A program made the position numbers and the translations under genes. From Deltaproteobacteria bacterium (GTDB lineage: Bacteria; Desulfobacterota; Binatia; HRBIN30; JACQVA1), in contig JACQVA010000248.1 in assembly GCA_016210005.1 (NCBI GenBank), forward strand, positions 1-36,455: DNA of 36,455 nucleotides. The letters run 5' to 3'. Every line of letters begins with the position of its first letter. The stretch's first letter is position 1. Below are positions 9,474-33,400 of the stretch, in pieces. The notes below the pieces were generated by a model. That model made no database searches. It was not told where the DNA came from and worked only from the letters and a program-made list of their open reading frames with translations.

Positions 9474-11129
9474 ATGAATCGAAACCACTACGCGGTTGCA
9501 CTGCTCTCGGCTTTGGTGGTCGTTGGGGGTACGTCCGCGCATGCGCTGACCGCGACACCGTCCCCCACTCCCACCCCCACCTATGTGTCAGAGCTTCCGG
9601 AGATTACCTTCCAGCCGAGTCAAGCGTTTTCCGTAGCACGGAACCCGGAGTTTATGGACGTGGCGGATTTCAACCGCGACGGGCTACCGGACATTGTGAT
9701 TAGCTCGCCCACGTCGAAGAAGGTGTCGATTCTCCTTAGCGACGGCTTGGGGAGCTTCAGTACCGGGGTATCTGCGGGACCAGTCGGCAAGTACCTACGT
9801 TCGGTTGCCGCAGGTGACATAGACGGTGATGGGATCGTCGACGTCGCGGTGATCGACAACCTCGGGGACGACGTATTCATCTTCCTCGGCAATGGAGACG
9901 GTTCACTTAAGCCGCCGACGGCCCTGGCGACGAAGCGGATGCCCTGGGGGATCGCGATCGGCCAGCTTGACGGTCAGCCGGGAAACGATCTGGCCGTGAC
10001 CAACCAGCTGGATAACACTGCGTCGATATTCTTCAACCGCAATACTGGGCATACCTCGTTTGCAGGCCCAAGCAATTTCCCCGTCAGCACAAAGCCAGGG
10101 CAGTTGATTTCCGGGGACTTCAACGACGACGGTTTCACGGATCTGGTGGCACTCAACACTGGTAACCTCGGCTCGAACGACGTAACCGAGTTGATCGGCA
10201 ACGGGTCTGGTGGCTTCCAAAGCAAGGGCAACTTCCTGGTCAAGGAAGGGGCACGGCAAATGACGGTTGGCGACTTCAACGGGGACGGCTTTCCCGACAT
10301 CGCCATCGTGAATGGTATCGCTTCGACGCACCAGGTCTTCACCAGTGCGTTCACCGTGCTGTTGTCGGACGGTCTGGGATTCTTTAGCCAGGCAGTCACC
10401 ATCGATGTCGACTGCGCAGTTGTATTGACTGTTGATGTGTGCATGCCGAAGGCGATTGCCGCTGGAGATTTCGACCGCGACGGAAACGTGGACATTGCCG
10501 TGGGCGTCTCGTTAGCCAATGCCGTGTTCATTTACGCCGGCAATGGGGACGGAACCGCGGATTTTGTGGGCCAACCTGTGCCTCTCGCCGCCGTACCAAA
10601 CTTCATGGTCGCAGCTGATTTTGATGACGATGGGCGACTGGACCTGGCCGTTTCCGAATCTGCGACCGGCTACACGCCCGCGAACGTGCAGCTCTTGCAA
10701 AACACTAGCCCCTTCCCCCCCACGCCGACACTTGCACCGTTTGTAACCCCCAGCGGCACGGTTCGTCCCCCGGTCACCCCGAGCAAGAACCAAGGGCAGA
10801 TTTGCAGCGATGACGATGAATGCTTCACCGGTTTTTGCGAGCAGGAGCGCTGCTGCGATCGCGCGTGTAATGGACAGAGCGAACGCTGCGACGTCGATCC
10901 CAACCCGGGCACTTGCGTGACCGTTCCAACGCCGATGCCGTCACCGACCCCGAAGCCAACCGGCGGCGGCGGGGCTTTCGTCAGCCGCAGCGGCGGTTGT
11001 TCAGCCGACAACGGCAACGGCACCCCGCTCGGGGCCACGGCAGTACTGCTGGTGCCGGGAGCGCTATGGCTAGGGCGGCGCCGGATCCTGGTCCGGGCGT
11101 TGGCTCCGGCCCGCCGCCGTTTGCGTTAG
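9474..11129 (+). CDS. Secreted FG-GAP/VCBS beta-propeller protein with MYXO-CTERM-like tail
   Basis: This is a 551-residue protein. ATG 9474 follows GAGGAGA (9461-9467) and gives a clean signal peptide ending in SAHA. A Thr-Pro-rich linker comes next, then seven propeller blades carrying DFNRDGLPDIVI-like calcium loops; the third blade (QLDGQPGNDLAV) has lost several ligands. Then come a second Pro/Thr linker, a cysteine cluster of about 10 Cys (GQICSDDDECFTGFC to GTCV), another Thr-Pro linker, and a tail with SGGCSADNG, a hydrophobic segment and arginines. This tail resembles the MYXO-CTERM surface-sorting signal of myxobacteria. It is probably a surface or secreted binding protein; the ligand is unknown. 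Its last 60 bases overlap the convergent nuclease gene. Confidence 0.85.
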   Translation: MNRNHYAVALLSALVVVGGTSAHALTATPSPTPTPTYVSELPEITFQPSQAFSVARNPEFMDVADFNRDGLPDIVISSPTSKKVSILLSDGLGSFSTGVSAGPVGKYLRSVAAGDIDGDGIVDVAVIDNLGDDVFIFLGNGDGSLKPPTALATKRMPWGIAIGQLDGQPGNDLAVTNQLDNTASIFFNRNTGHTSFAGPSNFPVSTKPGQLISGDFNDDGFTDLVALNTGNLGSNDVTELIGNGSGGFQSKGNFLVKEGARQMTVGDFNGDGFPDIAIVNGIASTHQVFTSAFTVLLSDGLGFFSQAVTIDVDCAVVLTVDVCMPKAIAAGDFDRDGNVDIAVGVSLANAVFIYAGNGDGTADFVGQPVPLAAVPNFMVAADFDDDGRLDLAVSESATGYTPANVQLLQNTSPFPPTPTLAPFVTPSGTVRPPVTPSKNQGQICSDDDECFTGFCEQERCCDRACNGQSERCDVDPNPGTCVTVPTPMPSPTPKPTGGGGAFVSRSGGCSADNGNGTPLGATAVLLVPGALWLGRRRILVRALAPARRRLR

Positions 11130-12998
11130 TATGCTCGACAGCGCGGCCTCCCACTCCGACAATTGCTGGGAGGCCGCGCTCGCATCTTGCAATCGAAACA
11201 CGAAGCCGTCGCGCTCGCCGCGGTCGCGTAGCCAGGCCGCCAGAATGGTGGTGCCGGCAACATCCGCGTCAGCCACGGGCGCATCAGCGTTTGCCTGAAT
11301 GCACTCGCTCACACGTTGCGCGAGCGCCAGCAGGTCCTCGACGCCTTGCAGGGTTCGCCGCTCAATCAGCCGGCCGCTCACCACCAGATAGGCCAGCGCC
11401 GCGCCGCCGCGATGGTGCGGTTGCAGCACCAGAAAATTGTGCTGCGCAACTACCCAACCCAACGTTCGCTGGCGCTTGAGCAGCCGCTCCAGCTCTTCGA
11501 GGTCTCGCTGCGCCCTGGCCGCAGCTTCAAAACGCAGGGCCTCGGCATGGGCCGTGCGTTGTCGTGTGAGCTCGCCGCGCGCCCAGTGGGTTTGGGCGGG
11601 ATCCCCGGCCAGCAGTCGCCGGAACGCTTCCACCTGTTCCCCATACTGGGCAGCCGCCACCCGGCTGGCACACGGCGCGGTGCAGGCGTCGGTCTGCCCC
11701 TGCAAGCAGGGCGTGGCTTCAGGATTCGGGCGTAGTCGTCCCGCACAGGTGCGCAACTTGAACAGGCGCGCCACCAACGCCATCGCCCGCAGCGCGGATT
11801 CGCGCGATCGGAACGGACCGAAGTATTGCCCGCCCCGCGCCGCTGCTCGGCAGGTGGCAAGTAAGCGCGGGAAGCGGGCATCGGCCGTCAGCTTGAGAAA
11901 CGCGATCTGCGGCAGATGTTTGTGGAGACGATTGTACGGCGGTTGTTCGCTGCGAATCGCCTCGGCTTCGCGGAGCGCAGCTTCCAGTTCCGAGCCGGCG
12001 TGCTCGGTGTCGAGGCGGTGGATGTGGCGGATGAGATCGAGGGTCTTGTCGCTGTGGCCGTTGGCATTACTCAAGTACTGACTCACCCGCTGGCGGAGGT
12101 TCTTGGCCTTGCCGATGTAGAGCAGGCGGCCGTCTTCGCCATAGAAACGATACACCCCGGGCGCGGGGGCAAGGGCAGCAATGGCTTGGCGCGGTAGCGG
12201 ACAGAAGAACACCCGGCCATCGCGAGCGTTCGCTTGCAGGGCGAGAGCCTGATCGAGCCGAGTGCTGCCGCGCGCGGCTAGCAGGTCCAGGAAGTGCAGC
12301 AGAATCTCGGCCGTGATCAGCGCGTCGCCGAGCGCCCGGTGGCGATCCACCAGCGCGATGCCGAAGTGCGCTGCCACCGCATCGAGACCGCGCCGGCGCA
12401 GCTGCGGCAGCAGCCGCCGCGCCAGCTGCAACGTGCACAGATGCGGCTGATGCAACGGGCGGCCCAACTGCGCCTGCGCCGCGGCGTTGAGAAACCCCAG
12501 ATCGAAACGGGCGTTGTGTGCCACCAAGACGCGATCGCCGGCGAACTCCATGAACGCCGGCCACGCCTCGGCCAGCAGCGGCTGCCCCGCCAGCATCTCG
12601 CCGGTGATGCCGGTGAGATGCGTAATGAACCGGGGCAGCGACCGGGCAGGATTCACCAGGCAACTGAAACGCTCGGCCACGCGGGCGCCCTCGACCCGCA
12701 CCGCGCCGATCTCGATGATCGAATCGCCCCGTTGCGGTGCGCCGCCGGTGGTTTCAACATCGACCACCACGAACGCGGTCTCCGCCAAAGACCGAGCCAG
12801 CGCCGCATGCACGGTTGCCACCCAACGTTGCTCCGCCCTGCAGAAGCTGAAGCGCGGGTCGCCGGCGAGCAAAGCTTGAACAAACCGTGGGCCGAACTCC
12901 CGATCGCCGCCGGGCTGAGTGAAGACGAGATCCAACAGCTCGCCGGTGGTGGCGCCGCCGGGGCGGGTGAGCAAGTAGCGATGCAGAGTCTCTCGCAT
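11070..12998 (-). CDS. DEDDh exonuclease fused to UvrC-like GIY-YIG nuclease
   Basis: This is a 642-residue protein. ATG 12998 has AAGG 7 bases upstream; TTG and GTG codons lie just before it. Residues 1-70 resemble a small winged-helix domain. Next is a DnaQ-type 3'-5' exonuclease with FVVVDVETTG (DxE), LVAHNARFDLGF and HRALGDA (DEDDh). From about residue 270 there is a UvrC-like GIY-YIG domain (APGVYRFYGEDGRLLYIGKAKNLRQRV), then the UvrC cysteine/UVR region (YFGPF, LRTC, CTAPC). The C-terminal RNase H-like and HhH domains of real UvrC are absent. Such fusions (Cho-like nucleases with an added exonuclease) are known in several phyla and are thought to act in nucleotide excision repair. It follows the P450 gene on the same strand. 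Confidence 0.87.
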   Translation of the reverse strand: MRETLHRYLLTRPGGATTGELLDLVFTQPGGDREFGPRFVQALLAGDPRFSFCRAEQRWVATVHAALARSLAETAFVVVDVETTGGAPQRGDSIIEIGAVRVEGARVAERFSCLVNPARSLPRFITHLTGITGEMLAGQPLLAEAWPAFMEFAGDRVLVAHNARFDLGFLNAAAQAQLGRPLHQPHLCTLQLARRLLPQLRRRGLDAVAAHFGIALVDRHRALGDALITAEILLHFLDLLAARGSTRLDQALALQANARDGRVFFCPLPRQAIAALAPAPGVYRFYGEDGRLLYIGKAKNLRQRVSQYLSNANGHSDKTLDLIRHIHRLDTEHAGSELEAALREAEAIRSEQPPYNRLHKHLPQIAFLKLTADARFPRLLATCRAAARGGQYFGPFRSRESALRAMALVARLFKLRTCAGRLRPNPEATPCLQGQTDACTAPCASRVAAAQYGEQVEAFRRLLAGDPAQTHWARGELTRQRTAHAEALRFEAAARAQRDLEELERLLKRQRTLGWVVAQHNFLVLQPHHRGGAALAYLVVSGRLIERRTLQGVEDLLALAQRVSECIQANADAPVADADVAGTTILAAWLRDRGERDGFVFRLQDASAASQQLSEWEAALSSILTQTAAGRSQRPDQDPAPP

Positions 12999-13050
12999 CA
13001 CCAACCTTCTAGCACCAGCCGCAGAAAACGAACAAGTGGCGAAAACGACC

Positions 13051-13065
13051 GCCGGCTACGCCGGC
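13051..13065 (-). terminator. Short GC hairpin at the P450 stop, weak terminator candidate
   Basis: A 6-bp stem (GCCGGC twice) with a 3-base loop overlaps the P450 stop codon. On the minus strand it is followed within a few bases by TTTT. The stem is short and the T-run is not adjacent, so the terminator role is weak. Confidence 0.2.
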
Positions 13066-14258
13066 ATCAGACGCAGCGGCAGACTGGTGACCGCCTGGAA
13101 TACGATACTCGGGTGGAGCGGTAACGACTCGCTGCCGGTGCGCTCGAAGCTGCTCGTGGCCGACAGCAAGGCGCGCAGCGCCACCTGGGTTTCGAGCCGC
13201 GCGAGGTTGGCGCCCAAGCAGTAATGGACGCCGAAGCCGAAGGCGAGGTGCTGATTGTCCTGCCGGCTGAGGTTGAATTCCTCCGGGTCCGTAAATACTT
13301 CCTCGTCCCGGTTGGCAGAACCGAGCCAGTTGATCACAAACTGCCCGGCTTCGATCGTGTGGCCGTGCAGCTCCACCGGCCGGGTGGCGAGGCGCGGATC
13401 CATTTGCACGGGTGAGGCGTAACGCAGCACTTCCTCCACCGCGGCGGGCAGCAAGTCGAGGTTCGCCCGCAAGCGGGCCAACTCCTCGGGATGTGCCAGC
13501 AGTTCGAGGACCGCGTTGCCGATCAGCGTGGTGGTGGTCTCGTTGCCGGCCACCAACAGCAGCGTCAGCATCTGCAGCATCTCGTCGTGCGACAACCGCG
13601 AGCCTTCCAGCTCTGCCTGTACCAGCCCGGTGAGCAAGTCCTCGCGCGGGCAGCGCCGGCGTTCCTCGGCCAGGCTCGAGAAGTAAGCGCCCATCTCCGC
13701 CACCAGAGTGCGCAGGTGCTGCATCCGCTCCGCCGTCGGCGGAGCGAACAGTGCGTTGCCCAGGTTCTCTACCGCCGCGTCTGACCAGCGCTTGAACTGC
13801 TCGCGGTCCGCCGGCGGGATGCCGATGATCTCGGCGATGATGATGACCGGCAACGGGTAAGTGAGCGCTTGCACCAAGTCGACCTCGCGCTGCTCCAGTG
13901 CGTGGTTGACCAACTCGTTGGCGATCTCGTGCATGCGCGGTTCGAGGCGCCGAATGATGCGCGGCGTGAATGCCTGGTTGACCAAGCCGCGTAGCCGCGT
14001 GTGCGCCGGCGGATCTTGGCCGAGCATGCTGGGCGGCGGCAGGTCCTCCGCACTCACCCCGGGCGGGGGCGGAAACCGGTTCGACCAGGTCTTGGAATCC
14101 TTCAGAATCGTCTGGATGTCGCCGTAGCGAAAGACCGAGACCACGGGCAGCTCGGGATGCCGGTAGACCGGCTGCTCACACCGCGCCCGCGCATAAAGTG
14201 GGAAGGGGTCGCGGCGCGTTGCCGGATCGAACGGGTTGAAGGTGAACTCGGCGCTCAT
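13056..14258 (-). CDS. Cytochrome P450
   Basis: This is a 400-residue soluble bacterial P450. Seen motifs are HTRLR (86-90, C-helix), AGNETT (237-242, I-helix oxygen-activation site), ExxR (Glu276-Arg279), and FGFGVHYCLG with the haem ligand Cys347. There is no membrane anchor. It is a monooxygenase that needs a separate electron donor; no ferredoxin or ferredoxin reductase gene is in this window. Its ATG overlaps the stop of the upstream redoxin gene in an ATGA, so translation is likely coupled to that gene. If the upstream TGA codon is a true stop, ribosomes would reach this ATG less often. The substrate is unknown. Confidence 0.95.
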   Translation of the reverse strand: MSAEFTFNPFDPATRRDPFPLYARARCEQPVYRHPELPVVSVFRYGDIQTILKDSKTWSNRFPPPPGVSAEDLPPPSMLGQDPPAHTRLRGLVNQAFTPRIIRRLEPRMHEIANELVNHALEQREVDLVQALTYPLPVIIIAEIIGIPPADREQFKRWSDAAVENLGNALFAPPTAERMQHLRTLVAEMGAYFSSLAEERRRCPREDLLTGLVQAELEGSRLSHDEMLQMLTLLLVAGNETTTTLIGNAVLELLAHPEELARLRANLDLLPAAVEEVLRYASPVQMDPRLATRPVELHGHTIEAGQFVINWLGSANRDEEVFTDPEEFNLSRQDNQHLAFGFGVHYCLGANLARLETQVALRALLSATSSFERTGSESLPLHPSIVFQAVTSLPLRLMPA

Positions 14259-15313
14259 GGCTTACTCGGTTCGGTGACGGGCAGTGGCTGGTAGTACGGC
14301 CGGCCGCGCTCCCGCCACTCCGAGTACATGTCGAAGAAGGCCGGCCCCATAGCGTCGAGACCGCGGATCGGCAACGAACCGCGACGAATGGTGAAGTCAT
14401 GTGGCGCCAACTCGCCCGCACGCGCGAAGTGCACTTCGGCTGCGGCCACTTGGTCGGCCTGGTGCAAATGCCAGCCGAGCACGAATTCCGCGCGTGCCAG
14501 TTGCTCCTCGGCCGTCGGCCGGGGCAGCAACCGCCGCACCTCGTCGGCGGCAAGCGCCAGTTCGCCCTGCTTCACCCACGCGCGCACAGCGTCCAGATGC
14601 GGTGCCGACTCGAGGCCGTGAAGGTCCTTGAACTGGTCGCTGCCAAACGCGACATCGTTTGGCCTTACGATCCGGCCACACTCATCGATCCAGACCACCG
14701 TCGGCACGTTGATCATGTCGTAGAGATCGGCCACGACGTGCTCGCTATCGATCAGGCTTGGATGTGTCGGTGCCGCCGCCTCGATGAACGGGCGCGCGTC
14801 TTCGGCGCTCTTGTCCAACGCCACCGTGATCACGGTGAAACCGCCGTCTCTGAGTTCCTGGTGCAGTGCCTGCCAGACCGGCAGGTCGTAGCGGCACCCT
14901 CACCAGGAGGCGTAGGCGACCAGGAGCACCTTCCGGCCGCGGTAGTCGGAAAGCGAATGTCGCGTGCCGCTCAGATCCGGCAGCGTGAAATCGGGTGCTT
15001 GCAGCGACGCGAGCTGCCCAGCTCGGTCGTCAGCCGAGACCCCGAGGCAGGCGACGCGAGCGTCGCCATCGACCGCCAGTGGCTGGCGCAGCAGCGCGGC
15101 GAAGCCGGCAAGGTCCACGCCCTCGGCCGTGAGCAATGTCGCCGCGTCAGTTACCGGAACACAACGCGTGCCCTTACAGAAACCCTGCGGCTGCCATTCC
15201 CAGCCGAGTGCAGCCTGCAAGGCGGCAGGGCGTAGTCGCAACCGCCCGTCACTCATGCTTGCTTGCACCTCGGCGGCCCGCCCTTCCACCAAGAGGGTCC
15301 ATCGTTCCGCCAT
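14255..15313 (-). CDS. Candidate selenoprotein: TlpA/ResA-like redoxin with Sec138
   Basis: One frame from ATG 15313 (AAAGGAG at 15320-15326, 6-base spacing) runs to the stop at 14255-14257, broken only by TGA at 14900-14902. Read through, it encodes 352 residues. Residues 1-100 are a domain with a CKGTRC pair (Cys46, Cys51). The redoxin starts at APDFTLPDL (106-114). LLVAYASW-U-GCRYDLP follows, so the TGA sits exactly at the first redox position. Homology continues without a break through TVITVALD to INVPTVVWIDE, where Pro204 is the cis-Pro. The last 110 residues are TPR-like helices. Such a protein would be a thiol/selenol oxidoreductase; no signal peptide is seen, so it is probably cytoplasmic. 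The spacing is U-x-C and not CxxC, which is unusual. The alternatives are a nonsense mutation or a sequencing error; the hairpin after the TGA argues against both. Confidence 0.75.
14869..14885 (-). promoter_or_regulatory. Candidate bacterial SECIS hairpin
   Basis: On the coding strand a perfect 6-bp stem CCTGCC / GGCAGG closes a five-base loop GGTCT. The stem begins 14 bases after the TGA and the loop begins 20 bases after it. Bacterial SECIS elements lie directly 3' of the UGA, with a short loop that has G in its first two positions. From memory, E. coli fdhF carries GGUCU in its SelB-binding loop. Loop, position and stem all fit; a chance hairpin cannot be excluded from one sequence. Confidence 0.65.
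14900..14902 (-). other. In-frame TGA, probable selenocysteine codon 138
   Basis: This TGA lies between TGG (Trp137) and GGG TGC (Gly139, Cys140). Reading frame and family similarity are intact on both sides. Redoxin relatives are expected to have Cys here, and TGC/TGT differs from TGA by one base. Confidence 0.7.
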
Positions 15314-15379
15314 AGAGCTCTCCTTTGTCGCTAACCGGGCTAAGCGGGATACCGACCTAAGTCAATGGGGCGCGTGGCG

Positions 15380-20764: not shown

Positions 20765-23700
20765 CTACTTGGGAGCCAGCGAGTCAGCCAGTGCGCGCGC
20801 CTGACGAAGCGCCTCTAAGGCCCCCTGGCGCTCGAAGACCTCGAGCGCTTGGGTGGCGCGCGCCCGTGCCGCCTCGCGCTCGCCGCGATGCGCGTGGAGC
20901 AGCGCCAGCTCGAACATCGCCGAGCCCGAGTAGCCGGCGAGCCGGTGCAGCGGATGATCCGCGGTGCGCTCGAGGAGTGCGCGCGCCTTGCGCCGGGCCG
21001 GCAACACGTGGCGGATGATGAAGCCGGGGTTGCGCAGCAGCACCGAGAGGTCGGCACGACCCTCGCGGCGCGCAATCCGCGCGTACACGATACCCAGGAT
21101 GTTGGTGGCCACGACCTCGACCCAGGGGCAGCTCGGCTGGCGGCGCGCCGCCTCGATGATGCTGATTCCTCGCGACGGCTCGCCAAGGCTCATCACCGCG
21201 GGCCCCGTCGCAAGCCGGATGATCGTCGAGATAATATTCTGGGAGAGCTGGTCCGCGGCCGGAAGCACCTCCTGCGCGAGCCGCACGAGTTCCTCCGAGC
21301 ACTGCGCCGTCCCAAGCGCCGAGGCCAGGTACACGGCCGACAAGTGCCGATACGCCGGGTCCAAAGATGCTTCGAGAGCGGCCTTCCCGGACTCGATCGC
21401 GCGTTCATGCTCGAAGGCGGCCGAGTGACAGATCGCCAGGGAGGCGTGGCCGAGGACCGCCGCGCGCGAGTTGCCCGTCCGTGCGGCGATCGCGAGGAGA
21501 TCCTCGGCGGCGAGCCGTGCACGCTTCAGGTCACCAGTCATCGCCGCGGCCATCACGATGGCCCCCAGAGGTTTGAAGACGACGTACGGCTCGTCCGGAA
21601 ACTGCTGCCCCAGAATCATGGCACGTTCGCCGGCTGCAATGGCCTCTGACGGGCGCGCCAGCAAGGCGAGGGTCCACGCGCGCCAGGTCTCGGCGTAGGC
21701 GAGGACGTGCGCACTCCCTGCCTTCTCGCCAAGCTGAGCGGCGCGGTCGAGGTGCTCGATCGAGGCCGGGTATTCCTCGTGCCAGTAGAGCATGTGACCG
21801 GTCCAGCCCAGATATAGACCTAGAAGCTCGGGGTCCCCGACACCCTCGGCTACCTTCAAATTCGCCTCGAGCAGCAACCGCCAGGCCCTGCAGTCACCTT
21901 GGTAGTAGTGGACCAGCGACCAGTCGTTGAGGAGCTCAACCAGCGCGCGGTCCTCTGCCGGCGTGCGCTCTCGTTCGCTGAGTAGTGCGTATGCGTTGCG
22001 GTAGTGAGTGGCGGCGTCTTCGATCGCGTAGCGTGCCACGCACTTCTTGCCGGACTCGCGGAGGTAGTGGACGGCCTTGTCGACGACGCCGGCGTGCAGA
22101 AAGTGATACGCCAGCGTCTCGACGAACTCCGGCATCCGGTCCGCGAAAATCCGCTCCATCGCGAAGGCGGCGCGCTGGTGCAGTGCCTGGCGCTCGCTCT
22201 TGAGCAGACCGTCGTAAGCGACCTCCTGGGTGAGCGCATGCTTGAAGATGTACTCGACATCGGCCGCGCCGCTGCGGGCGCGGATCAAGTCTGCCGCTTC
22301 GAGCTGCGCCAGACTGGGCTGCAGCCCGTCGGCCTCGTCGTCGGCTTCGCCGGTCACCTGGGCCACGACGGAATACAGAAACTCGCGGCCGATGACGGCG
22401 GCGTTGCGCAGCACGCGCCGCCGGGGCTCGTCGAGCCGGTCGATGCGCGCGGCAATCACGCCGCGGATAGTCGTAGGCACTACCGCTTCGGAGAGCGCTC
22501 CGGCGATCTTCCACGTCCCATTGCGTGTGAGAACGTGGGTTTCTACCAGAGAGTTGACGACCTCTTCGACGTAGAACGGGTTGCCGTCCGAGCGCTCCTC
22601 AATGAATCGGGTGAGCGCGTCCGGAGGCTCGCTGCCGAGCAACGACTGGAGTAGCTCGCGCGTCTGGCGCGACGACAGCTCGCGCAGTTCGAGGACGCGT
22701 GTCCCCGGACCGGGGGCGTAGCCCGGACGATAGTTGCAGATGAGCACTGCGGGGACCTTGAAATCCGTGGTCAAGCCGCGCACCAGCGTCACCGTCGACG
22801 TGTCCGCCCAGTGCAAGTCCTGGAGACAGATCACGGTGGGTCCCCGGCAAGCGAGGGCGGCGAGGAGGCGGCGGACGGCGTCGAAGAGCAAGCGCTGGAA
22901 CGCCTCGCGGTCGATCACTGGGCCGTCGGCCAGCTCGATGTTGTAGAGCCGCGCGATGACCGGCAGCACCTCGCGCGAGGATTCGACCAGCGCACTCACG
23001 CCGGCCTCGACCTTCAGGCGTACCGCCGCCGGTTTGTCGTTCTCGTCGATCCCCCAGCTCCGGTTCAGCAGGTCGATCACCGGAAAGTAGGGAATGTTCT
23101 CCGCGTACGGGTAGGCGCGCCCTTCGATCCATTGGATGTCGTTGCCGACGCGGGCGCGAAACTCCTCCACCAACCTCGTCTTGCCCGTACCTGCCTCGCC
23201 GCAGATGGCGATCACCGCCGGCCTGCCGTCGCGCATCTGCTCTGCTGCACCCAAGAGGACACCGATCTCCTCTTGCCTCCCGACGAAGGCGCCGCGGAAA
23301 CGGGCAGACGCTGCGGCCCTCGATGAAGCTCCGACCACACGCGCGACCGCTACCGGTTCTGCCTTGCCTTTCACCTCCCGCTGGCCGAGATCCTGCAGCT
23401 CGAAGGCGCTAGCGACGAGCTTGCGCGTCTCCGGGCCGATCCAGATCTCGCCTTCCCCGGCGAGGCTCATGAGACGTGCCGCCAGGTTGATGGTGTCGCC
23501 CAGCGGGCCAGCGGTGCCGTGGTCGAACTTGAGCTCGCCGGTGACCACCAGGCCGGTATTGACGCCAGTGTGCAGAGCGATTGGCCCGCCGGTGCGCTTC
23601 TCCACCTCCGGGCTGAGCGCCTCCACGGCCTCATGCAGCTCCAATGCGGCGCGCACGGCACGCTCCGGGTCGTCCTCGTGCGCCGCCGGCACGCCGAAGA

Positions 23701-24010
23701 TTGCCATGATCGCATCGCCGATGAACTTCTCGATGTGACCGCCGTAGCGCCCGACGATCTCGGCAGCGCGCCCGAAGATGCGGCCCATGATCTCGCGCGT
23801 CTCCTCGGGATCGAGCTTTTCGGACAGCGCCGTATAGCCGGTCAGGTCGGAGAACAAGACCGTGACCTGTTTGCGCTCCGCCTCGGCCGCCGGCGGTGAC
23901 GCGGCGCCGCCCTTGAGAGCAGCGCCGCACTGGTTGCAGAAGCGTGCCGCCGGCGCGTTGCCGCAGCCGCACGCGGGGCATTGTCCTTCGCTGAGCGTCT
24001 CTGAACTCAT
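20765..24010 (-). CDS. Zinc-ribbon / class III cyclase / STAND ATPase / TPR protein, catalytic set complete
   Basis: This is a 1081-residue cytoplasmic signalling protein. Its start has GGGAGG at 5-base spacing. A zinc ribbon (Cys11, 14, 25, 28) is followed by a nucleotide cyclase domain. Metal-binding Asp55 (FSDLTG) and Asp99 (FIGDA), Lys95, Asp172 (GDTIN), Asn175 and Arg179 are all present, the full set expected for an adenylate cyclase. An AAA_16/STAND ATPase follows: Walker A GEAGTGKT (271-278) and Walker B ICLQDLHWAD. From about residue 600 to the end there are TPR-like helices that probably sense a partner or ligand. The gene is last in the minus-strand array, 45 bases after the beta-lactamase-fold gene. 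It is the best candidate in the array for real cAMP synthesis. No cAMP receptor is in the window. Confidence 0.9.
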   Translation of the reverse strand: MSSETLSEGQCPACGCGNAPAARFCNQCGAALKGGAASPPAAEAERKQVTVLFSDLTGYTALSEKLDPEETREIMGRIFGRAAEIVGRYGGHIEKFIGDAIMAIFGVPAAHEDDPERAVRAALELHEAVEALSPEVEKRTGGPIALHTGVNTGLVVTGELKFDHGTAGPLGDTINLAARLMSLAGEGEIWIGPETRKLVASAFELQDLGQREVKGKAEPVAVARVVGASSRAAASARFRGAFVGRQEEIGVLLGAAEQMRDGRPAVIAICGEAGTGKTRLVEEFRARVGNDIQWIEGRAYPYAENIPYFPVIDLLNRSWGIDENDKPAAVRLKVEAGVSALVESSREVLPVIARLYNIELADGPVIDREAFQRLLFDAVRRLLAALACRGPTVICLQDLHWADTSTVTLVRGLTTDFKVPAVLICNYRPGYAPGPGTRVLELRELSSRQTRELLQSLLGSEPPDALTRFIEERSDGNPFYVEEVVNSLVETHVLTRNGTWKIAGALSEAVVPTTIRGVIAARIDRLDEPRRRVLRNAAVIGREFLYSVVAQVTGEADDEADGLQPSLAQLEAADLIRARSGAADVEYIFKHALTQEVAYDGLLKSERQALHQRAAFAMERIFADRMPEFVETLAYHFLHAGVVDKAVHYLRESGKKCVARYAIEDAATHYRNAYALLSERERTPAEDRALVELLNDWSLVHYYQGDCRAWRLLLEANLKVAEGVGDPELLGLYLGWTGHMLYWHEEYPASIEHLDRAAQLGEKAGSAHVLAYAETWRAWTLALLARPSEAIAAGERAMILGQQFPDEPYVVFKPLGAIVMAAAMTGDLKRARLAAEDLLAIAARTGNSRAAVLGHASLAICHSAAFEHERAIESGKAALEASLDPAYRHLSAVYLASALGTAQCSEELVRLAQEVLPAADQLSQNIISTIIRLATGPAVMSLGEPSRGISIIEAARRQPSCPWVEVVATNILGIVYARIARREGRADLSVLLRNPGFIIRHVLPARRKARALLERTADHPLHRLAGYSGSAMFELALLHAHRGEREAARARATQALEVFERQGALEALRQARALADSLAPK

Positions 24011-24055: not shown

Positions 24056-25261
24056 TCAATCCTCCACGGCCGCGGTGATCGCGTTCTGGAAGAGGTCGAA
24101 GTTCCAGAGCAGGTTGTAGTCCGGGTTCAGCCGCGTGGTCACTTCGAAGTAGGCTCCGACCAGTTCGTGGTCGCGATCGATCCAGTAGTTGACGCCCCCG
24201 GCGCCGGGGTGGCCGAACGTGCCGAGTGGCTGCAGGCTGCCGTCGAAGTACTTCCATTTCGTGGGCGACACGATTTGCCAGCCGTAACCCCACGACGCGC
24301 GCTCCATGACGAGGTTGAGCAGGAGCGCACCGAGGCCGGGCACTTGGTCACGCGTCATGGCCGCCACCGCGGCGGGAGAGAGAATGCGCGCGTCGCCGTA
24401 ACGGCCACGGTTCAGAAACATTTGCCCGAAGACGGCCATGTCGCGCGGTGTGGAGAAGGCTCCAGCCCCGCCGTACGGCGTCCGCTGCCATTGGCGCGAG
24501 CCGATGCACGGCAAGACCGGTTCTTCAGGATTGCCGAACGGAATGTCGGGCGCGCGCTGCACCACCCGGTGCGACTCGGACTCCGGCACCACATAGTAGG
24601 TGTCGTGCATGCCGAGCGGATCGAAGATGCGCTCCCGTGCCACGTCCTCGAGGCCCCGGCCCGAGAGGCGCCGTACAATCTCGGCGAGCAACTCGTAGTT
24701 GTGGCTGGAGTAGACCATCACTTCGCCAACGCGCGCGACACGCGGGGCGTCCCAGAAGAGTGAGAGCCACTGGTGAATGATCGGGTCCAGCCCTTCGGGA
24801 CACGGCGGCGCTTTAAAGCCGGCTGCGAGCTTCTTTGCCCTGTGCTCGATCCAGGGCGGATCGATCTGAAACGGGTAACCGGTGGTGTGGGTCAACAGGT
24901 GGTGGACGAGGATCTCGTCGGTGCCGTCGCCGGAGATTTCGGGCAGGTAGTCCTTCGCCGGGCGATTGAGTCCCAGGAGCCCATCCTCGACGAGCTGCAT
25001 CACCAGCGTGGCGGTGATCGGCTTGGTGATGGACATGACCGGGAAGAGCGCGCCACGTTCGAGCGGTCGCGAGTCGGGTCCGGGGCCGAGGACGCCGAAG
25101 GCTTCGTTCAGCACGACTACGCCGCGCCGCGCCACGCAGACGCCGAGAGTGGGGGTGTGCCCCTCCGTCACCCAACGTGCGCATAAGTCGCGAGCGCGCG
25201 CGACTCGCTCGGGGAGCATGCCCACTTCCTTTGGAGAACCTGGTCGCAGCTTCGTCGTCAT
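24056..25261 (-). CDS. Serine beta-lactamase-fold hydrolase (class C/EstB-like)
   Basis: This is a 401-residue protein with no signal peptide. It has SxxK (Ser77-Ile-Thr-Lys80), a Tyr184 motif (VYSSHNYE), LLTHTTGYP and GHPGAGG near the C-terminus, as in class C beta-lactamase-like esterases and peptidases. Lacking a signal peptide, it is more likely a cytoplasmic esterase than an antibiotic-resistance enzyme. The frame extends upstream to 25543, but ATG 25261 overlaps the stop of the preceding cyclase gene in an ATGA, which together with the family start (PGSPKEVGM) fixes it. It is thus embedded and translationally coupled in the cyclase/ATPase operon. Confidence 0.9.
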   Translation of the reverse strand: MTTKLRPGSPKEVGMLPERVARARDLCARWVTEGHTPTLGVCVARRGVVVLNEAFGVLGPGPDSRPLERGALFPVMSITKPITATLVMQLVEDGLLGLNRPAKDYLPEISGDGTDEILVHHLLTHTTGYPFQIDPPWIEHRAKKLAAGFKAPPCPEGLDPIIHQWLSLFWDAPRVARVGEVMVYSSHNYELLAEIVRRLSGRGLEDVARERIFDPLGMHDTYYVVPESESHRVVQRAPDIPFGNPEEPVLPCIGSRQWQRTPYGGAGAFSTPRDMAVFGQMFLNRGRYGDARILSPAAVAAMTRDQVPGLGALLLNLVMERASWGYGWQIVSPTKWKYFDGSLQPLGTFGHPGAGGVNYWIDRDHELVGAYFEVTTRLNPDYNLLWNFDLFQNAITAAVED

Positions 25262-28200
25262 CCGTTCCTCACTTCCAAGACTTGGGGGTCGGCCTCGAAG
25301 GCCGCGCGGATCTCCGGGTCGGCGATGCGCGAGGACATCTCGTCGAGCAGCGCGCGGGCTGCGGCACGGTCGCCGCTCGCGCCCCGCTGATCTCCCGTGG
25401 CGTGGCGGGCGCGCGCGCGCGACGCCAGTATGCGCCATGTCCGCGTGCGAAAACTCTTCTCCTCGGCTTCGCGGATCGCCGCGTCGGCGCGCTCGAGGAT
25501 CTCTTCCCAGCGCTGCAAGCCTGCCCGCGCGTGCAGACCCCATTCAAGCGCGATGAGGCAACCGCGCCGCTGTCCCAGCTTCCTGGCGCCTTCCGCCAAT
25601 TGATCCGCGACGTCGACCGCTTGTGCAAACTCGCCGCGCGCGAGCGCCGCTTCGGCAAAGGCGAACGGCGACGGATGGAAACCGATCTCGTCACTTGTCC
25701 GCAGCACCCAGGCAGCGAGGTCGGCGCCGGCATCGCCGCGCCGCGCCGCGATGACCGTCAGCAGATCCACCATGCCGCGCTGCATCCACGTCCGCGACAG
25801 CCGCCCGGCTTCCGCCAATACCTCTTTGGCCACCGCTTCGGCACGGTCGAGGGCGCCGAGCGCCGCCAGCCACACCGCAACGCCGAACTCGCGCATGCAG
25901 CGCCCGAAGGGGTGGGCGTCGTCGGCGACCTCCTGCTGGAACGAGGTCCAGGCTTCGTCGAAACGGCCGAGATCGGTGAGCGCCAGGCCCTTGATGCTGG
26001 CGTACTGGACAGGAGGCGAGCCGAGCTGCTCAGCGAGGGTGACGCCTTCGTCGCAGGTGACCACGCACTGTTCGAAGTCGCCGCGCATCCAGTAGTGCCA
26101 CATGAGCCAGAACAGATGCTCCTTCAGGCGCAATGGATCGCGGCGCGCCTCGAGGCGCTGGCGCAGGCGCATCGCTTCGGCATGCGCTTCACCGAGTTGC
26201 AGGAGCTTGATGCGGGCCGATGCGGCTTCGATTTCGAGCTCTTCGTCGCCGAGCGCGGCAGCCAGCAGGCGTGCCTCCTCGATGTTGGCAACCGCCTGGC
26301 TGTGGTAGTCCTGCCAGAAATCGGTGAACCAGCTCGTCGGGATGAGCGCCTGGCACATGGCGCGCTTGTCGTCGATGGTCTTCGCCAGCGCATACGCCTG
26401 CTCGTAGGAGGCGCGCATCTTCTCAGCGTATCCCTGCTCGTCGAGGGAGCGGATCCAGAGACCGCGGCTACGCATGAGCAGCAGTTCCACCTCGTGCGCG
26501 CGATTGCCGGACTGCTGTGCGGCGGCGAGCAGGGGCTCGATATCGGCGAGCGCCTCGCGGCCGCGGAAGAGATCGAGCTTGAGCTGGGCGCGTGCTTGCA
26601 GCACGGCGTCACGCTCCGCGCCGGACGGTGCGATCGCCAGCGCGTCGGCAAACGCGGCGAGCGCCTCGTCGAGGCGGGCCAGGCCGCGCAGCGCGCGCGC
26701 GCGCAGGCGTAAGACGCGCATCGCGGCTTCGGCGTCACTGTCGGGCAGCACGGTGCGCGCGGCATCGAGATCGCGCAGCGCGTCTTCGAAGGCGAGCGCG
26801 TCGAGCGCGCGCTCCGCGGCGCGCACCAGCCAGCTCGCGGTGCGTTCGCCTGGGGCTGCGGCGCCGGCCTGGTAGAGGTGATACGCGATATCGGGCGCAT
26901 GGGCCTCGGCGTCGCGCGCGTGGAGTGTCTCCAGAGCGTCGGCCATGCGCAGGTGCAGCCGCTGCCGCCGCGCGGTGGAGAGCAGCGAGAGCAGCGTCTG
27001 GCGGATCTGTTCGTGCACGAAGGCGTAGCGCGCCTCGCGCCCGGTGGAAATGTCCTCGATGAGCGTGGCGCGTCCCGCCTCATCGAGCGCGTCGAGCAGG
27101 TCGTCCTCGTCCACGCCCTGGAAGGCGGTGAGCAAGTCGAAGCGGAAGGCCTTGCCCGCCAGCGCGGCGATCGTCAGGACGCGGCGGCAGTCGTCGCTGA
27201 CACGCTCGAGCCGCTGTCCGATGACCAGGCCGACGCTGCGTGGTACGTCGGTGTCGGCGATCTGTACACCCGAGCGCCACTGGCCCGCCTCGTCGAACAG
27301 CTTGCCCGCCTCGTGGAGATGACGAAACACCTCTTCCACGAAGAACGGATTGCCTTCGGTCTCCGCGTAGACGAGCGCCACCAGCTGCTGCGGCGGCGTG
27401 CTGCCCGCACGGCCGGCGAGGACCGCGGCGACACCGTCGGCGGTGAGGCGACCGAGTCGGATCTCTTCGGCGAGGCGCTGGCGCAGGAGTTCAGGGAGGA
27501 CGGCGGCCAGCGGGCGGCCGGGCTTGAGATCGGTGTCGCGGTACGTTCCCACCACCAGCACCGGGATCTGCGCGAGCCGCTGGGCCAAGTGTCGGATCAG
27601 GAGCAGCGTCGACTCATCAGCCCAGTGGAGGTCTTCGAACACGAGCAGTAGCGGTGTCGCACGCGCAGTGCGCTCGAGGAACTCGGAGATTCCGTGGAGC
27701 AGGTAGCGCCGCTCCTGCTCGGGCGGGAGTGAAACGGGCTCTGGAATGTCCGAGTAGCGCACGCGCAGCTCGGGCATGAGCTTGGCGATCTCGGGCGCGT
27801 TCTCGCCGAGTACCCGGCGGAACGCCTCGGGCGATCCTTGGCGCGCCGCCGCCTCGAGGTGCTCGATGGTGGGCAGGTAAGGCGGCGCACCCTGCTGGTC
27901 GACGCAGTGGCCGGTCAACACCATGAGCCCGAGCCGCTGCGCCGCGGCGGCCGCCTCCTCGACCAGCCGCGACTTGCCCACGCCGGCCTCGCCGCCGATC
28001 AGCATCAGCGTGCCGCTGCCTGAGCGGGCACGCTCCACCGCCTGCAGGAGCCTCGTGCGCTCCTGGGCGCGGCCGACGAACGGCGTGCGCTCGCTCCCCG
28101 AAAGGACGCCGCTGGCCTCGGCGGTTGTCCACGGCACCTCCCAGAGATGCCAGGGTGCGTCGATTCCCTTGAGTACGAACTCGCCGCGGTCGACCAGCTC

Positions 28201-28653
28201 GCCACGCGCGGTGCCGAGAACGCCGTGCACGGTATCGGAGGCGAAGATCCCACTGGCCGTCGCCACCGACTCGATACGCTTGGCGACAATCAGCGTCTCC
28301 CCGTGCAGGCCGCCATCCTCGCTCAGTACCTCGCCGGTATGCAGGCCGACACGGAGCTGCACGGCACTATCGGGTCGGTTGCGATTCCGGCGCGCGATCG
28401 CGCGTTGGATATCTTGCGCGCACACTACGGCACGCCGCGCCGACTGAAACGCCACCATGAGTCCATCGCCGGTGTCCTTGATGACGACCCCGCGTTGCTT
28501 ATCGACTTGCTCTTGGGCCAGAGCGGCCAGCTCGCGCTCCACGGCCGTGGCGGCCTCGTCTCCCAGCCGCTGGTTGAGCAACGTCGAGCCGACGAGGTCG
28601 GTAGAGAGCACCGTGACCGTGCCCTCGGGGAGCGAGACCGTTTCAGCAGACAT
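25258..28653 (-). CDS. Cyclase-like / STAND ATPase / TPR protein, no zinc ribbon
   Basis: This is a 1131-residue protein. ATG 28653 has GGAAGG at 5-base spacing; a GTG at 28686 is in frame but less likely. The cyclase-like domain starts at once: Asp19 (STDLVGST), Lys59 and Asp63 (KDTGDG) are kept. The block aligned to GDTINLAAR reads GETLIVAKR, so the purine-position Asp is Glu119 and the transition-state Asn is Ile122. Cyclase activity is doubtful. The ATPase has Walker A GEAGVGKS and Walker B LVFEDLHWAD. The last 600 residues are TPR-like repeats. Unlike its neighbours it lacks an N-terminal zinc ribbon; a ribbon remnant lies out of frame just upstream. Its stop overlaps the next gene's ATG. 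Confidence 0.9.
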   Translation of the reverse strand: MSAETVSLPEGTVTVLSTDLVGSTLLNQRLGDEAATAVERELAALAQEQVDKQRGVVIKDTGDGLMVAFQSARRAVVCAQDIQRAIARRNRNRPDSAVQLRVGLHTGEVLSEDGGLHGETLIVAKRIESVATASGIFASDTVHGVLGTARGELVDRGEFVLKGIDAPWHLWEVPWTTAEASGVLSGSERTPFVGRAQERTRLLQAVERARSGSGTLMLIGGEAGVGKSRLVEEAAAAAQRLGLMVLTGHCVDQQGAPPYLPTIEHLEAAARQGSPEAFRRVLGENAPEIAKLMPELRVRYSDIPEPVSLPPEQERRYLLHGISEFLERTARATPLLLVFEDLHWADESTLLLIRHLAQRLAQIPVLVVGTYRDTDLKPGRPLAAVLPELLRQRLAEEIRLGRLTADGVAAVLAGRAGSTPPQQLVALVYAETEGNPFFVEEVFRHLHEAGKLFDEAGQWRSGVQIADTDVPRSVGLVIGQRLERVSDDCRRVLTIAALAGKAFRFDLLTAFQGVDEDDLLDALDEAGRATLIEDISTGREARYAFVHEQIRQTLLSLLSTARRQRLHLRMADALETLHARDAEAHAPDIAYHLYQAGAAAPGERTASWLVRAAERALDALAFEDALRDLDAARTVLPDSDAEAAMRVLRLRARALRGLARLDEALAAFADALAIAPSGAERDAVLQARAQLKLDLFRGREALADIEPLLAAAQQSGNRAHEVELLLMRSRGLWIRSLDEQGYAEKMRASYEQAYALAKTIDDKRAMCQALIPTSWFTDFWQDYHSQAVANIEEARLLAAALGDEELEIEAASARIKLLQLGEAHAEAMRLRQRLEARRDPLRLKEHLFWLMWHYWMRGDFEQCVVTCDEGVTLAEQLGSPPVQYASIKGLALTDLGRFDEAWTSFQQEVADDAHPFGRCMREFGVAVWLAALGALDRAEAVAKEVLAEAGRLSRTWMQRGMVDLLTVIAARRGDAGADLAAWVLRTSDEIGFHPSPFAFAEAALARGEFAQAVDVADQLAEGARKLGQRRGCLIALEWGLHARAGLQRWEEILERADAAIREAEEKSFRTRTWRILASRARARHATGDQRGASGDRAAARALLDEMSSRIADPEIRAAFEADPQVLEVRNG

Positions 28654-28759
28654 GGGGCCTTCCGTGTGCGCGGCAGTGTGCTTCACGTCCGTGGGGCGCC
28701 ACCACGCGGGCGAAGACCGAATCGACGAGATTTGCGGCTTGGCACTTCGGGCATCTCAT
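28643..28759 (-). pseudogene. Out-of-frame zinc-ribbon remnant
   Basis: An ATG at 28759 opens a 38-codon frame starting MRCPKCQAAN, almost the same as the start of the zinc-ribbon gene at 28809-29750 (MRCPSCQHEN). Similarity ends after the first CxxC knuckle. The frame stops inside the start of the next cyclase gene, in a different frame. It looks like a leftover of a zinc-ribbon N-terminus that the cyclase gene at 25258-28653 lost. It is too short to be sure. Confidence 0.3.
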
Positions 28760-29753: not shown

Positions 29754-30464
29754 TCAGACCTGCAACGCCTTCGCCAAGCGCGCCGCGTGGCCGGTGGCGC
29801 CGATCGCCTCGTACAGTCGATGCGCTTCGCGCAGATGATGCCCGCGTGCCACGGCGTCGCCGCACACGCGGGCCAACTCGGCGCGTATCTCGGCGATGAG
29901 CGGTTCGAGACCGCGCGCTCCCGTCTCCGCCACCGCAGCCGCCGCAGCTTGCAGCGCGTCCTCCACCGCTCCCCGAGCCCGCTGACCATGCTCGGCGCAG
30001 AGCGCGTAGGCCAGCGCCACGTACTGCTGCACGAGGACCTTCTGCCCGCGCTCCTTTCCCAACGCGATCGCCTCTTCGGCCAGCTGCCGGGCGCGCGCGG
30101 CGTCGCCCCGCCCGAGCGCCGCGCGGGAGAGCGTGGCCAGATTCAGGCTCTCGAACTCGAGACCGACGCGCCGCTCGCGCGACCGGTCGAGCACTCCAGA
30201 GGTTACGTCCTCGGCCTCCTCCTCATTCCGGACTCGCGACCCTTCGACCGTGCCCGGGACAGGCTGTCGACGCTCGACCGGAGCAGCGCAGGCGAGGACG
30301 CTGCCGTCGCGCACCGCCACCCCCTGCACATCGACCAGCTCGTCGATTAACTCGTCCAATTCGGTGCCGCGGAGCTCCAGCTCGCGGCCCAAGGCGCGCA
30401 CGGAAAGACGACCTTGCTGTTCGAGGACCTCACGGGCGCGCTGCAGCTTGGCGACGAAGCTCAT
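29754..30464 (-). CDS. Miniature array protein: N-terminal winged-helix-like segment joined to TPR tail
   Basis: This is a 236-residue protein. Residues 1-60 (AREVLEQQGRLSVRALGREL to VRDGSVLAC) resemble the N-terminal helical segment that in many long cyclase/ATPase proteins directly precedes ERRQ-LTVLFCDLVGST. Here ERRQ (64-67) is present, but the cyclase and ATPase domains are absent. After a short linker the sequence becomes a TPR tail (ARQLAEEAIALGKERGQKV, AHRLYEAIGATGHAARLAKAL). An in-frame internal deletion explains this best. Its ATG overlaps the stop of the upstream giant gene (ATGA), and it ends 3 bases before the next gene, so it keeps operon spacing. Its function is unknown; it may act as an adaptor. 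Confidence 0.65.
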   Translation of the reverse strand: MSFVAKLQRAREVLEQQGRLSVRALGRELELRGTELDELIDELVDVQGVAVRDGSVLACAAPVERRQPVPGTVEGSRVRNEEEAEDVTSGVLDRSRERRVGLEFESLNLATLSRAALGRGDAARARQLAEEAIALGKERGQKVLVQQYVALAYALCAEHGQRARGAVEDALQAAAAAVAETGARGLEPLIAEIRAELARVCGDAVARGHHLREAHRLYEAIGATGHAARLAKALQV

Positions 30465-33400
30465 CGTGTCATCTCCTCGATGTGCGCCGCGAGGCGTGCG
30501 GCGTTGGCGCTCGCGCCCATCTCGCAGTAGAGGTCACGCGCCTGCTCCGGCTGGCGCCGCGCGTCGTCCAGCTGCCCATCGCGCTCGCAGAGCGCGGCAC
30601 GCTCGACGTGGACGTAAGGGAGGTAGACGCGCATACCCGTCGTCTCGGCAACTTCGTGTGCGCGGTCGAGTGCTGCAGTGGCCGCCGCGACATCTCCTTC
30701 AGCCCTCAGCATTCGAGCCCGGGCCAACTCGAGCCGCGCCCGCGCGCCCTTCCAATCTCCAAGAACGACGAAGGCTTGCTCGACGGCGGTCCGGGCACCC
30801 GGGACATCTCCGCTGTCCAGCCGGGCGTCGGCGAGGTCGCCGAGTGCGCCGGGCACGAGATAGATTCCGACGCCGTTGGCTCGGGCCAGGTCGATCGCCC
30901 CGGTGAGATGTCTGATGGCCTCGGTCGCTGCTCCCCGACGGGCAAGCACCAGACCCAGAATCCAGTACACGTAGACGCGACCGAAGGAGGACCCGACCCT
31001 TTCGACGCCGTCGAGGGCGCTGCCTGCATGACGGAGCGCCGCCTCGACATCGCCGGCAAACGTCGCGACGCGTGCCAGCCCTGCCTCGCACCACGCGACC
31101 ATCTCGGTTGCGCCGAGGCGTTGCAGGACCTCCCGGCCGTGTTCAAATGAGGCGCGGGCCTCGCCCAGGTGCCCACACTCGGTGAGGAAGAGGCCCCGGA
31201 AATGATGCGCGGCGGCATGGGGCACGTTGCCGAGCGGAGGGCTGCTCTCACTCACGCCGCAGGCGAACAGCTGGATTGCCTCGTGCACACGTCGCAGAGC
31301 GTCCGAGAGCTCGCCGAACACCCACTCGTTGAGGCTGGTGCTCCACAGCCCCCAGCACCGGAGGTCGTTGTCTCCGGAGGCATCGGCAACGCGGAGCATC
31401 TCCGCACCGAGCTGACGTGCCTGCCCCACTTTCCCCCGCATCGAGAGCGTGACCATGTACGAAGCGATGGCGTAAAACCGCGCCCGCGCTGTACCGATCC
31501 GATCGGCGAGCGCCCGCGCCTCTTCGAAGAGCTGTTCGGCGGCCTCCTCCGACATTCCTCCCACGCGGAACGAGGCGGCGGGCAGCCGCGCCCTGGCCTT
31601 GAACGCGATCTCGGCGGCGCCGTCGCCCGTAGCATCGGCTTGGAGCAGGCCGCGCACGCGCTCCCAGTGCCGGCACGCCTCCACGGGCGCATTCATGCCG
31701 GCCCATTCGGCGGCGCGCGCGTACCAACGGGCCGCGTCGAGGGCCTCGCCTGCCGCCTCGAAATGATGCGCCACGAGACTCGCGCGCTCGTCCAAGCGCT
31801 CCGTCTCACCTGCAGCGAGGGCGCGCGCCACGGCCGCATGGATGCGGGCGCGCCGCACGCGCAGCAGCGATTCGTAGGCGACCTCCTGCGTCAGCGGGTG
31901 TTTGAAGGAGTACTCCGCATGTGGGTAGAGGGAGGTCTCGTAGAGGAATTCGCTTGCGGTGGGCGTGCGCAGTAGGTCGGGGAGCGGCGTGTCGATCGGC
32001 GCGTCGGCGACGACCTGCTCGAGGATCGGGAGGCTGAACTCCTTGCCGATCACCGCCGCCGTTTTCAGGAGCAGCTTCGCGTGTTCGCCCAGGCGGTCGA
32101 TGCGCGCGGCGAGGAGATCGTGGACGGTGGCTGGGATATCGAGGTCAGTGACCGGGCGGACGAGCCGCGGTGGCCCGCCGTCGTCGTGAACCAGGGTCCC
32201 CTGATCGCGAAGCGCCTGGACGACCTCCTCGACGTAGAAGGGATTTCCCCCCGTCCGTTGTCGGATGGTATCGCGCAGCGCCGCGAGCGACGGGGCCGTG
32301 CCGAGCAGCTCGCCGAGCAGCTCGTCCACGGCTTCGGGGCCGAGCGGGTGCAGCGGGAGTTGCTGGTAGTAGGAGCGCTGCATCCAGGCCGCGTGGAACT
32401 CAGGCCGGAAGTTGAGCAGCAGCAGGCTGCGCGTACCCGCCGTGGCCTCGACGAGCACCTCGAGCACGGACGCGCTCGCGTGATCGATCCAATGGAGATC
32501 GTCGAGCAGTATGACCGCCGGCTCGCGGCGGCTGCGCGCCTGCATGATACGGCGAAGGAGGCCCGCTTGCGCGCGCTCGCGCGCCTCGGGATCCATCCGC
32601 GGTGCCGGACGCTCCGGGTCCGGAAACCCGAGCATGTCGAAGACGAGCGGCAGATCGTCTCGCAGCGCATCGTCAAGCAGCACCAGTCGGCCGGCGACCT
32701 TCTCGCGCGCCGCCTGTGGTGAGTCCTGCTCGACGATCCCGAAGGACGCCCGCTGGTACTGGAGGATCGGAAGGAACGGCACCATCTGGCCGTGGGCGAG
32801 GCACTGGCCCTCGTTGACCGGAATGCCACGAGCCCGACAGCGCTGCGCGAACTCCCAGCACAAGCGGCTCTTGCCCGTACCGGCCTCGGCGACGACGCCC
32901 ACCACTTGGCCGTGCCCGGCGAGGGCCTGCTCGATCGCGGCGTCGAGCACTGACATCTCGGCCGTGCGGCCGACGAAGCGCGAGAAGCCGCGGGCTCGCG
33001 ACCGATCGAGCCGGCTGCGCGCAGTACCAAGCCCTTCGAGGGCAAAGACGCCGACTGGGGCGCGGACGCCCTTCACCGTGAACGCCCCGAGATCGCGGAA
33101 CGTGAAGTACCCAGTGACGAGCGCGGCCGTGTGCTCAGTCAAGTAGATTGTGCCGGGCTCGGCCACCTGCTCCATGCGCGCCGCGAGCCCGACGGTGTGC
33201 CCCTGCGCGGTGTAGTCCATACGCAGGTCGTCGCTGATGGCACCGACGACGACCTCGCCGGAGTTGAGTCCCATCCGCGCGGCCAGACTGAGCCCGTGCG
33301 TGCGCCGCACCTCGTCGCCGTGCCGTCGCAGGGCGTCGCGCAGGTGCAGAGCGGCGTAGCAGGCGCGCTGGGCGTGGTCCTCGTGCGCGATCGGCGCGCC

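Follow-up and report, generated by a model that had tools for sequence, protein, structure and literature searches.

Whether an in-frame TGA at the redox cysteine position of a redoxin is read as selenocysteine (Sec) is the question raised by this locus, which lies in a window of 36,455 nucleotides (the whole stretch of DNA analysed here). A first-pass annotation had described a candidate selenoprotein at 14255-15313, a 352-codon frame broken by a single TGA, and had left the strand unstated. We confirmed this frame and placed it on the minus strand, where it runs from 15313 to 14258 with its stop TGA at 14257-14255. Counted from the ATG at 15313, codon 138 is TGA (14902-14900), in the context YASW-U-GCRYDL. 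The automatic list of open reading frames splits the frame at this point into 14900-15313 (137 aa) and 14255-14833 (192 aa). The claim that redoxin similarity resumes past the TGA proved correct, as the Pfam AhpC-TSA match (63.5 bits, cut-off 26; residues 105-215) crosses codon 138. The features of the locus are as follows.

14255 to 15313, minus strand: predicted selenoprotein gene (352 codons and stop), a redoxin with a UGC active site, an N-terminal CX4C domain and a TPR-like C-terminal part
14900 to 14902, minus strand: in-frame TGA predicted to be read as Sec138 (TGA in 58/61 loci, TGC in 3/61)
14870 to 14884, minus strand: SECIS-like hairpin with stem CUGCC/GGCAG and loop GGUCU, the loop starting 20 nt past the TGA
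14894 to 14896, minus strand: Cys140, invariant in 35/35 sequences, the proposed resolving partner of Sec138
15005 to 15313, minus strand: N-terminal domain, residues 1-103, with Cys46 and Cys51 (CX4C), without a convincing Pfam match
14654 to 15004, minus strand: redoxin domain, about residues 104-220, from profile matches
14279 to 14596, minus strand: helical C-terminal part, about residues 240-345, described as TPR-like from weak matches of the family
15320 to 15326, minus strand: AAAGGAG, resembling a ribosome-binding site by its sequence, 6 bases upstream of the ATG
13056 to 14258, minus strand: neighbouring cytochrome P450 gene, whose ATG overlaps the stop of the selenoprotein gene as ATGA

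Sec machinery of the source genome

The first-pass annotation had proposed a search for Sec machinery in the same genome, and all four components were found over their cut-offs: tRNA-Sec (77.8 bits against a gathering score of 47; anticodon tca), selB (409.1 bits against 242.25), selA (595 bits against 267.9) and selD (402.3 bits against 125). Fewer of the 14 control genomes exceeded the cut-offs for selB (2), selA (1) and selD (2) than for tRNA-Sec (5), which makes the protein searches the more selective ones. The four genes are spread over four contigs (C148, C247, C150 and C9) of a 268-contig assembly that is 97.57% complete and 4.52% contaminated. One of these contigs could conceivably be foreign, although selA is present in 123 of the 148 genomes of the class. 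The SelD gene (L018, contig C9) has an in-frame TGA of its own, HGAG-U-ACK, which fits the UxxK motif listed for SelD in the accessible part of a 2026 review (PMC13188914). SelD is probably itself a selenoprotein, so that a second gene of this genome seems to use Sec.

The codon at position 138 in relatives

Including the source genome, matches to the protein were found in 50 of the 148 genomes of the class (E 1e-25) and in 7 of the 395 genomes of a phylum sample (E 1e-30). Codon 138 was read in 61 loci, made up of 59 class matches, the complete set of those that span the codon, and two Planotetraspora loci; the count leaves aside L028 and L029, two redoxins in which the match is confined to the redoxin part, the second pieces found in G440 and G464, and the short match L024. 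L083 and L085 stem from a single genome, where each sits at a contig end, and they may be two parts of the same gene. TGA was found in 58 loci and TGC in three, so the alignment of relatives that had been suggested gave Sec or Cys codons only; this fits a redox cysteine between YASW and GCRYDL and agrees with the earlier view that the TGA is not a random nonsense mutation. By genome, 49 of the 50 matching members of the class carry TGA at this codon, which makes a base-calling error very unlikely. Over the five relatives compared, amino-acid differences were fewer downstream of the TGA than upstream.

Outside these genomes, 20 stretches of viral contigs fitted a pattern and none was confirmed as a relative, and 89 plasmid records matched, none covering more than 80% of the query. 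The best plasmid match, on a Streptomyces sp. NBC_00536 plasmid (L093, 1501-2077), is unannotated, falls into two pieces and covers 54% of the query; it corresponds to the C-terminal half of the family and looks broken by eye.

An alternative explanation is that the UGA is decoded as an ordinary amino acid, either by a changed code, which would give the same-looking open frame, or by programmed read-through without Sec. However, TGA is the stop of three of the eight other window genes examined and of the selenoprotein gene itself, the full Sec machinery is present, and the alternative codon in relatives is one for Cys in all three cases, which leaves this reading very improbable. That two separate genes are involved, one for a short N-terminal protein and another for part of a redoxin begun past the TGA, is what the two frames of the automatic list would suggest, but the downstream frame starts at 14833 (GTG), beyond the active site, and the TGC relative L032 is one unbroken frame of 349 codons, so this can be dismissed with near certainty.

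A SECIS-like hairpin with a covarying loop

The sequence CUGCC-GGUCU-GGCAG starts fifteen bases past the TGA. GGUCU is also found in the loop of the Escherichia coli fdhF SECIS, where SelB reads an exposed GU. The hairpin was evaluated in 57 of the 58 TGA copies (the contig ends in L085), and all five stem pairs were present in each of them, with one pair being G-U in three copies. As the conserved LPVWQ accounts for much of the stem conservation, synonymous sites give a more telling test. At the stem Leu, CTG is used in 56 of the 57 copies compared to a mean of 32% at the other Leu positions of the same genes, and the stem Gln codon is CAG in 56 of 57 compared to 75% at other Gln positions. 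The exception in both cases is L026, where Leu is TTG and Gln is CAA, a double synonymous exchange from C-G to U-A that keeps the pair.

The loop codons encode Pro (Ser in three copies) and Val (Gly in three copies), and their third bases combine as G-C in 24 copies, C-G in 20, A-C in 8, A-T in 3 and A-G in 2 (n = 57); in all 13 copies with A, this base can pair with the next U. Watson-Crick combinations at this third-position pair occur in 47 of 57 copies, compared to an average of 21.9 and at most 36 in 20,000 shuffles, which ignore relatedness. The mutual information of the loop pair is 0.92 bit, the runner-up among adjacent codon pairs from -30 to +40 having 0.46. When relatedness was allowed for, at least ten changes were found at the Pro position on the tree, and all six independent G/C pairs changed together (p value 0.031, the lowest that six pairs can give). 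Ten control codon pairs showed nothing alike, the highest values being 2.0 in the same and 3.3 in the other direction at +36/+37, and several of them had too few pairs for a judgement.

The accessible part of PMC13188914 gives the bSECIS criteria as a loop of 3-9 nt, a stem of 4-16 bp, a G in the first two loop positions, a spacing of 16-37 nt and a minimum free energy of at most -7.5 kcal/mol. As a 21-nt piece, the window hairpin lies within all of these ranges (loop GGUCU of 5 nt, stem of 6 bp, spacing of 20 nt, -11.3 kcal/mol). A G in the first two loop positions is present in 57/57 TGA copies, and 55 of the 57 reach -7.5 kcal/mol, L039 and L033 being weaker. In the Cys form L032, stem and loop G are retained (-10.6 kcal/mol) with the loop bases unpaired (C-C), and the stem is lost in L022 and L023. 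Because the Cys form L032 passes and two TGA copies miss the energy threshold, general SECIS criteria do not separate the hairpin. Folded alone, the window RNA prefers a competing stem, with z scores of -0.01 (63 nt), -1.81 (53 nt) and -2.77 (116 nt), and the Rfam scan gave no SECIS match and one chance-level match on the other strand. The covarying loop could serve as a signature in searches for further members.

These data also bear on the idea that the gene is a pseudogene, or that a Cys codon became TGA by mutation or through an error of the assembly; any of these would leave a frame interrupted by a single TGA as observed. The identical TGA in nearly all matching genomes of the class, an amino-acid change that is not greater past the TGA than ahead of it, and the covariation of the hairpin all argue against such an origin, to which we give hardly any credence. 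Overall, the machinery, the conserved TGA, the hairpin and its covariation support the initial proposal, and we are highly confident that the minus-strand gene at 14255-15313 encodes a real selenoprotein with Sec at its redox active site.

Exchange of Sec and Cys among relatives

The tree comprised 58 rows (the partial L061, L083 and L085 were omitted) and was rooted at the midpoint only. One branch (100/100) parts the clade of the window protein, with 18 Sec and three Cys forms, from 37 Sec rows. The Cys form of G093 (L032) groups with the Sec form L038 (99/95), which would most simply mean that Sec was replaced by Cys, with the caveat for its place that L032 has a long end branch and an odd composition. 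Where the Planotetraspora pair belongs is uncertain (support 85/33, with a long-branch warning). The G093 assembly is 100% complete in about 20 contigs; it gave no selA match, its best selB match (192.1 bits) is under the cut-off, and its tRNA-Sec match (50.8 bits) is just over the cut-off of 47 that five of the 14 controls also exceed. In this genome, Sec may well have given way to Cys together with the loss of the selenium machinery. P. silvatica also has a Cys form, yet it gave a tRNA-Sec match of 70.2 bits, so Cys is not coupled to a loss of tRNA-Sec there.

As a weak test of co-occurrence, selA was found at E 1e-80 in 45 of 49 TGA genomes compared to 78 of 98 genomes without a match to the protein. 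The four TGA genomes without selA at this threshold are G444, which has selB and tRNA-Sec, G462, which has a selB fragment, G451, which has a tRNA-Sec, and G447 (80% complete), which has no Sec machinery over the cut-offs. Two genomes, G001 (L026, L027) and G453 (L045, L060), each contain two UGC selenoprotein genes, one per clade.

Protein architecture and proposed mechanism

Cys46, Cys51, residue 138 and Cys140 are invariant in all 35 aligned sequences, which were taken from the 61 loci. The CKGTRC part had been regarded as foreign to standard redoxins, and residues 1-103 indeed gave no convincing Pfam family, the only match being a chance-level one to TonB_C (E 0.27, residues 7-43). Used alone as a query against 15 genomes of the order (E 1e-4), this N-terminal domain gave nine matches, all at sites of whole-protein matches. 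In the C-terminal part, TPR_2 matches weakly in 28 of the 35 members (E up to 1, best 1.7e-5), the window protein itself being without a match, and designed TPR proteins are matched by the family profile at the whole-sequence level (best 2.2e-16), no individual segment passing by itself. By eye, neither a signal peptide nor a hydrophobic N-terminal segment was seen, and the protein is therefore presumably cytoplasmic. AlphaFold2, run on the window protein and two Planotetraspora relatives, gave a mean pLDDT of 45.9 and thus no geometry in support of a relay between the CX4C pair and the UGC site. A Foldseek search of the PDB with this model found no match at E 0.001 or better; its top rows, N-terminal domains of ushers (E 0.017), were discarded because they rest on the poor model.

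The in-frame UGA, its conservation, the RNA signal, the machinery and the invariant residues are read from the sequence, and they suggest a mechanism. SelB bound to the hairpin would deliver Sec-tRNA-Sec, and the ribosome would insert Sec at residue 138. The product, probably located in the cytoplasm, would be a thiol-disulfide oxidoreductase with the ResA/AhpC-TSA fold, whose Sec selenolate may attack a disulfide or peroxide substrate, after which Cys140 would resolve the intermediate as a Se-S bond within the UGC motif. The Cys46/Cys51 pair may pass reducing equivalents to this bond, with electrons presumably flowing in that direction, or it may bind a metal, and the TPR-like tail may serve as a docking site for a partner.

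The role of Cys46 and Cys51 is where an alternative has most weight. They could form a structural or metal site that is non-catalytic, a rival to the CX4C relay only and not to the decoding of Sec, and consistent with this both Cys are kept in the three Cys forms too; their invariance in 35/35 sequences fits a redox role equally well. We consider such a site plausible, with not quite an even chance of being correct, and a relay from CX4C to the UGC site a tentative and rather doubtful proposal. It is likewise unlikely, though worth stating, that the clade of the window protein is an unnamed subfamily with a self-contained relay, in which CX4C would reduce the Se-S bond of UGC within one cytoplasmic polypeptide and the TPR-like tail would choose the client.

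Gene neighbourhood

Neighbourhoods were compared for L026-L059, with flanks of about 1.5 kb where contigs allow, and in four stretches of 15-16 kb. Since the P450 start overlaps the selenoprotein stop, Sec read-through could influence the translation of the P450. Within this sample, a P450 like that of the window adjoins the gene in G001 only, without overlap. Ten flanking open reading frames scanned in the four 15-16-kb stretches revealed no shared partner; their matches included P450 (L086), CbiX and an epimerase-like protein (both L087), MarR (L088) and FKBP (L089).

Elsewhere in the window, three large proteins within 13 kb on the minus strand (20765-24010, 25258-28686 and 30461-33877) each combine an adenylate/guanylate cyclase with an AAA_16 ATPase domain, and one minus-strand frame (11070-13004) fuses an exonuclease (RNase_T) domain to a GIY-YIG domain.

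Comparison with known families

The closest named family is NCBIfam NF041054, WAxxUGC_long ('ResA-like WAxxUGC motif-containing protein'), whose profile of 354 positions is of similar length and shares the UGC. The window protein matches it over residues 25-226 with E 7.5e-79, but its 265.6 bits are under the cut-off of 300, and its motif is YASWUGC compared to WAxxUGC (WASWUGC in some members of the same clade, e.g. L038). All 15 members tested of the 21 in the window protein's clade fell under the cut-off (179.7 to 271.9 bits), whereas five of the six tested from the 37 of the other clade were over it, L034 being under at 290.9. The members over the cut-off stand across one tree branch from the window protein's clade, which by its sequences is a sister subfamily that NF041054 leaves unnamed. 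Because they fall under this cut-off, its members may well be annotated as two genes or flagged as broken.

'Prx-like (UGC-containing)' selenoproteins appear in the accessible part of the 2008 Global Ocean Sampling study (row: pfam00578, UGC, 46, 15, 855; PMC2398784), a UGC-containing Prx-like protein is named in that of PMC9312934, and that of the 2026 review lists a 'UGC-containing TlpA disulfide reductase family protein' (PMC13188914); no UGC was found in PMC5029168. The window protein shares PF00578 and UGC with the entries of PMC2398784 and PMC13188914, a likeness by description in the accessible text. The first-pass annotation had called U-x-C unusual, which holds in comparison with CxxC, but UGC is already a catalogued motif. 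In a literature search lying largely outside subscription journals, the term WAxxUGC was not found, nor was anything further on the window protein's subfamily among the matches listed.

With the ResA/TlpA oxidoreductases the protein shares the redoxin domain, with E 3.3e-12 for the match to solved ResA structures. It differs from them in having UxC instead of CxxC, extra N- and C-terminal parts and no hydrophobic N-terminal segment by eye, and it scores 66.8 bits against the cut-off of 170 of the ResA model NF002854. The kind has been known since 2008, and the gene described here is, as judged from these comparisons, a well-supported additional selenoprotein of that kind rather than a new phenomenon.
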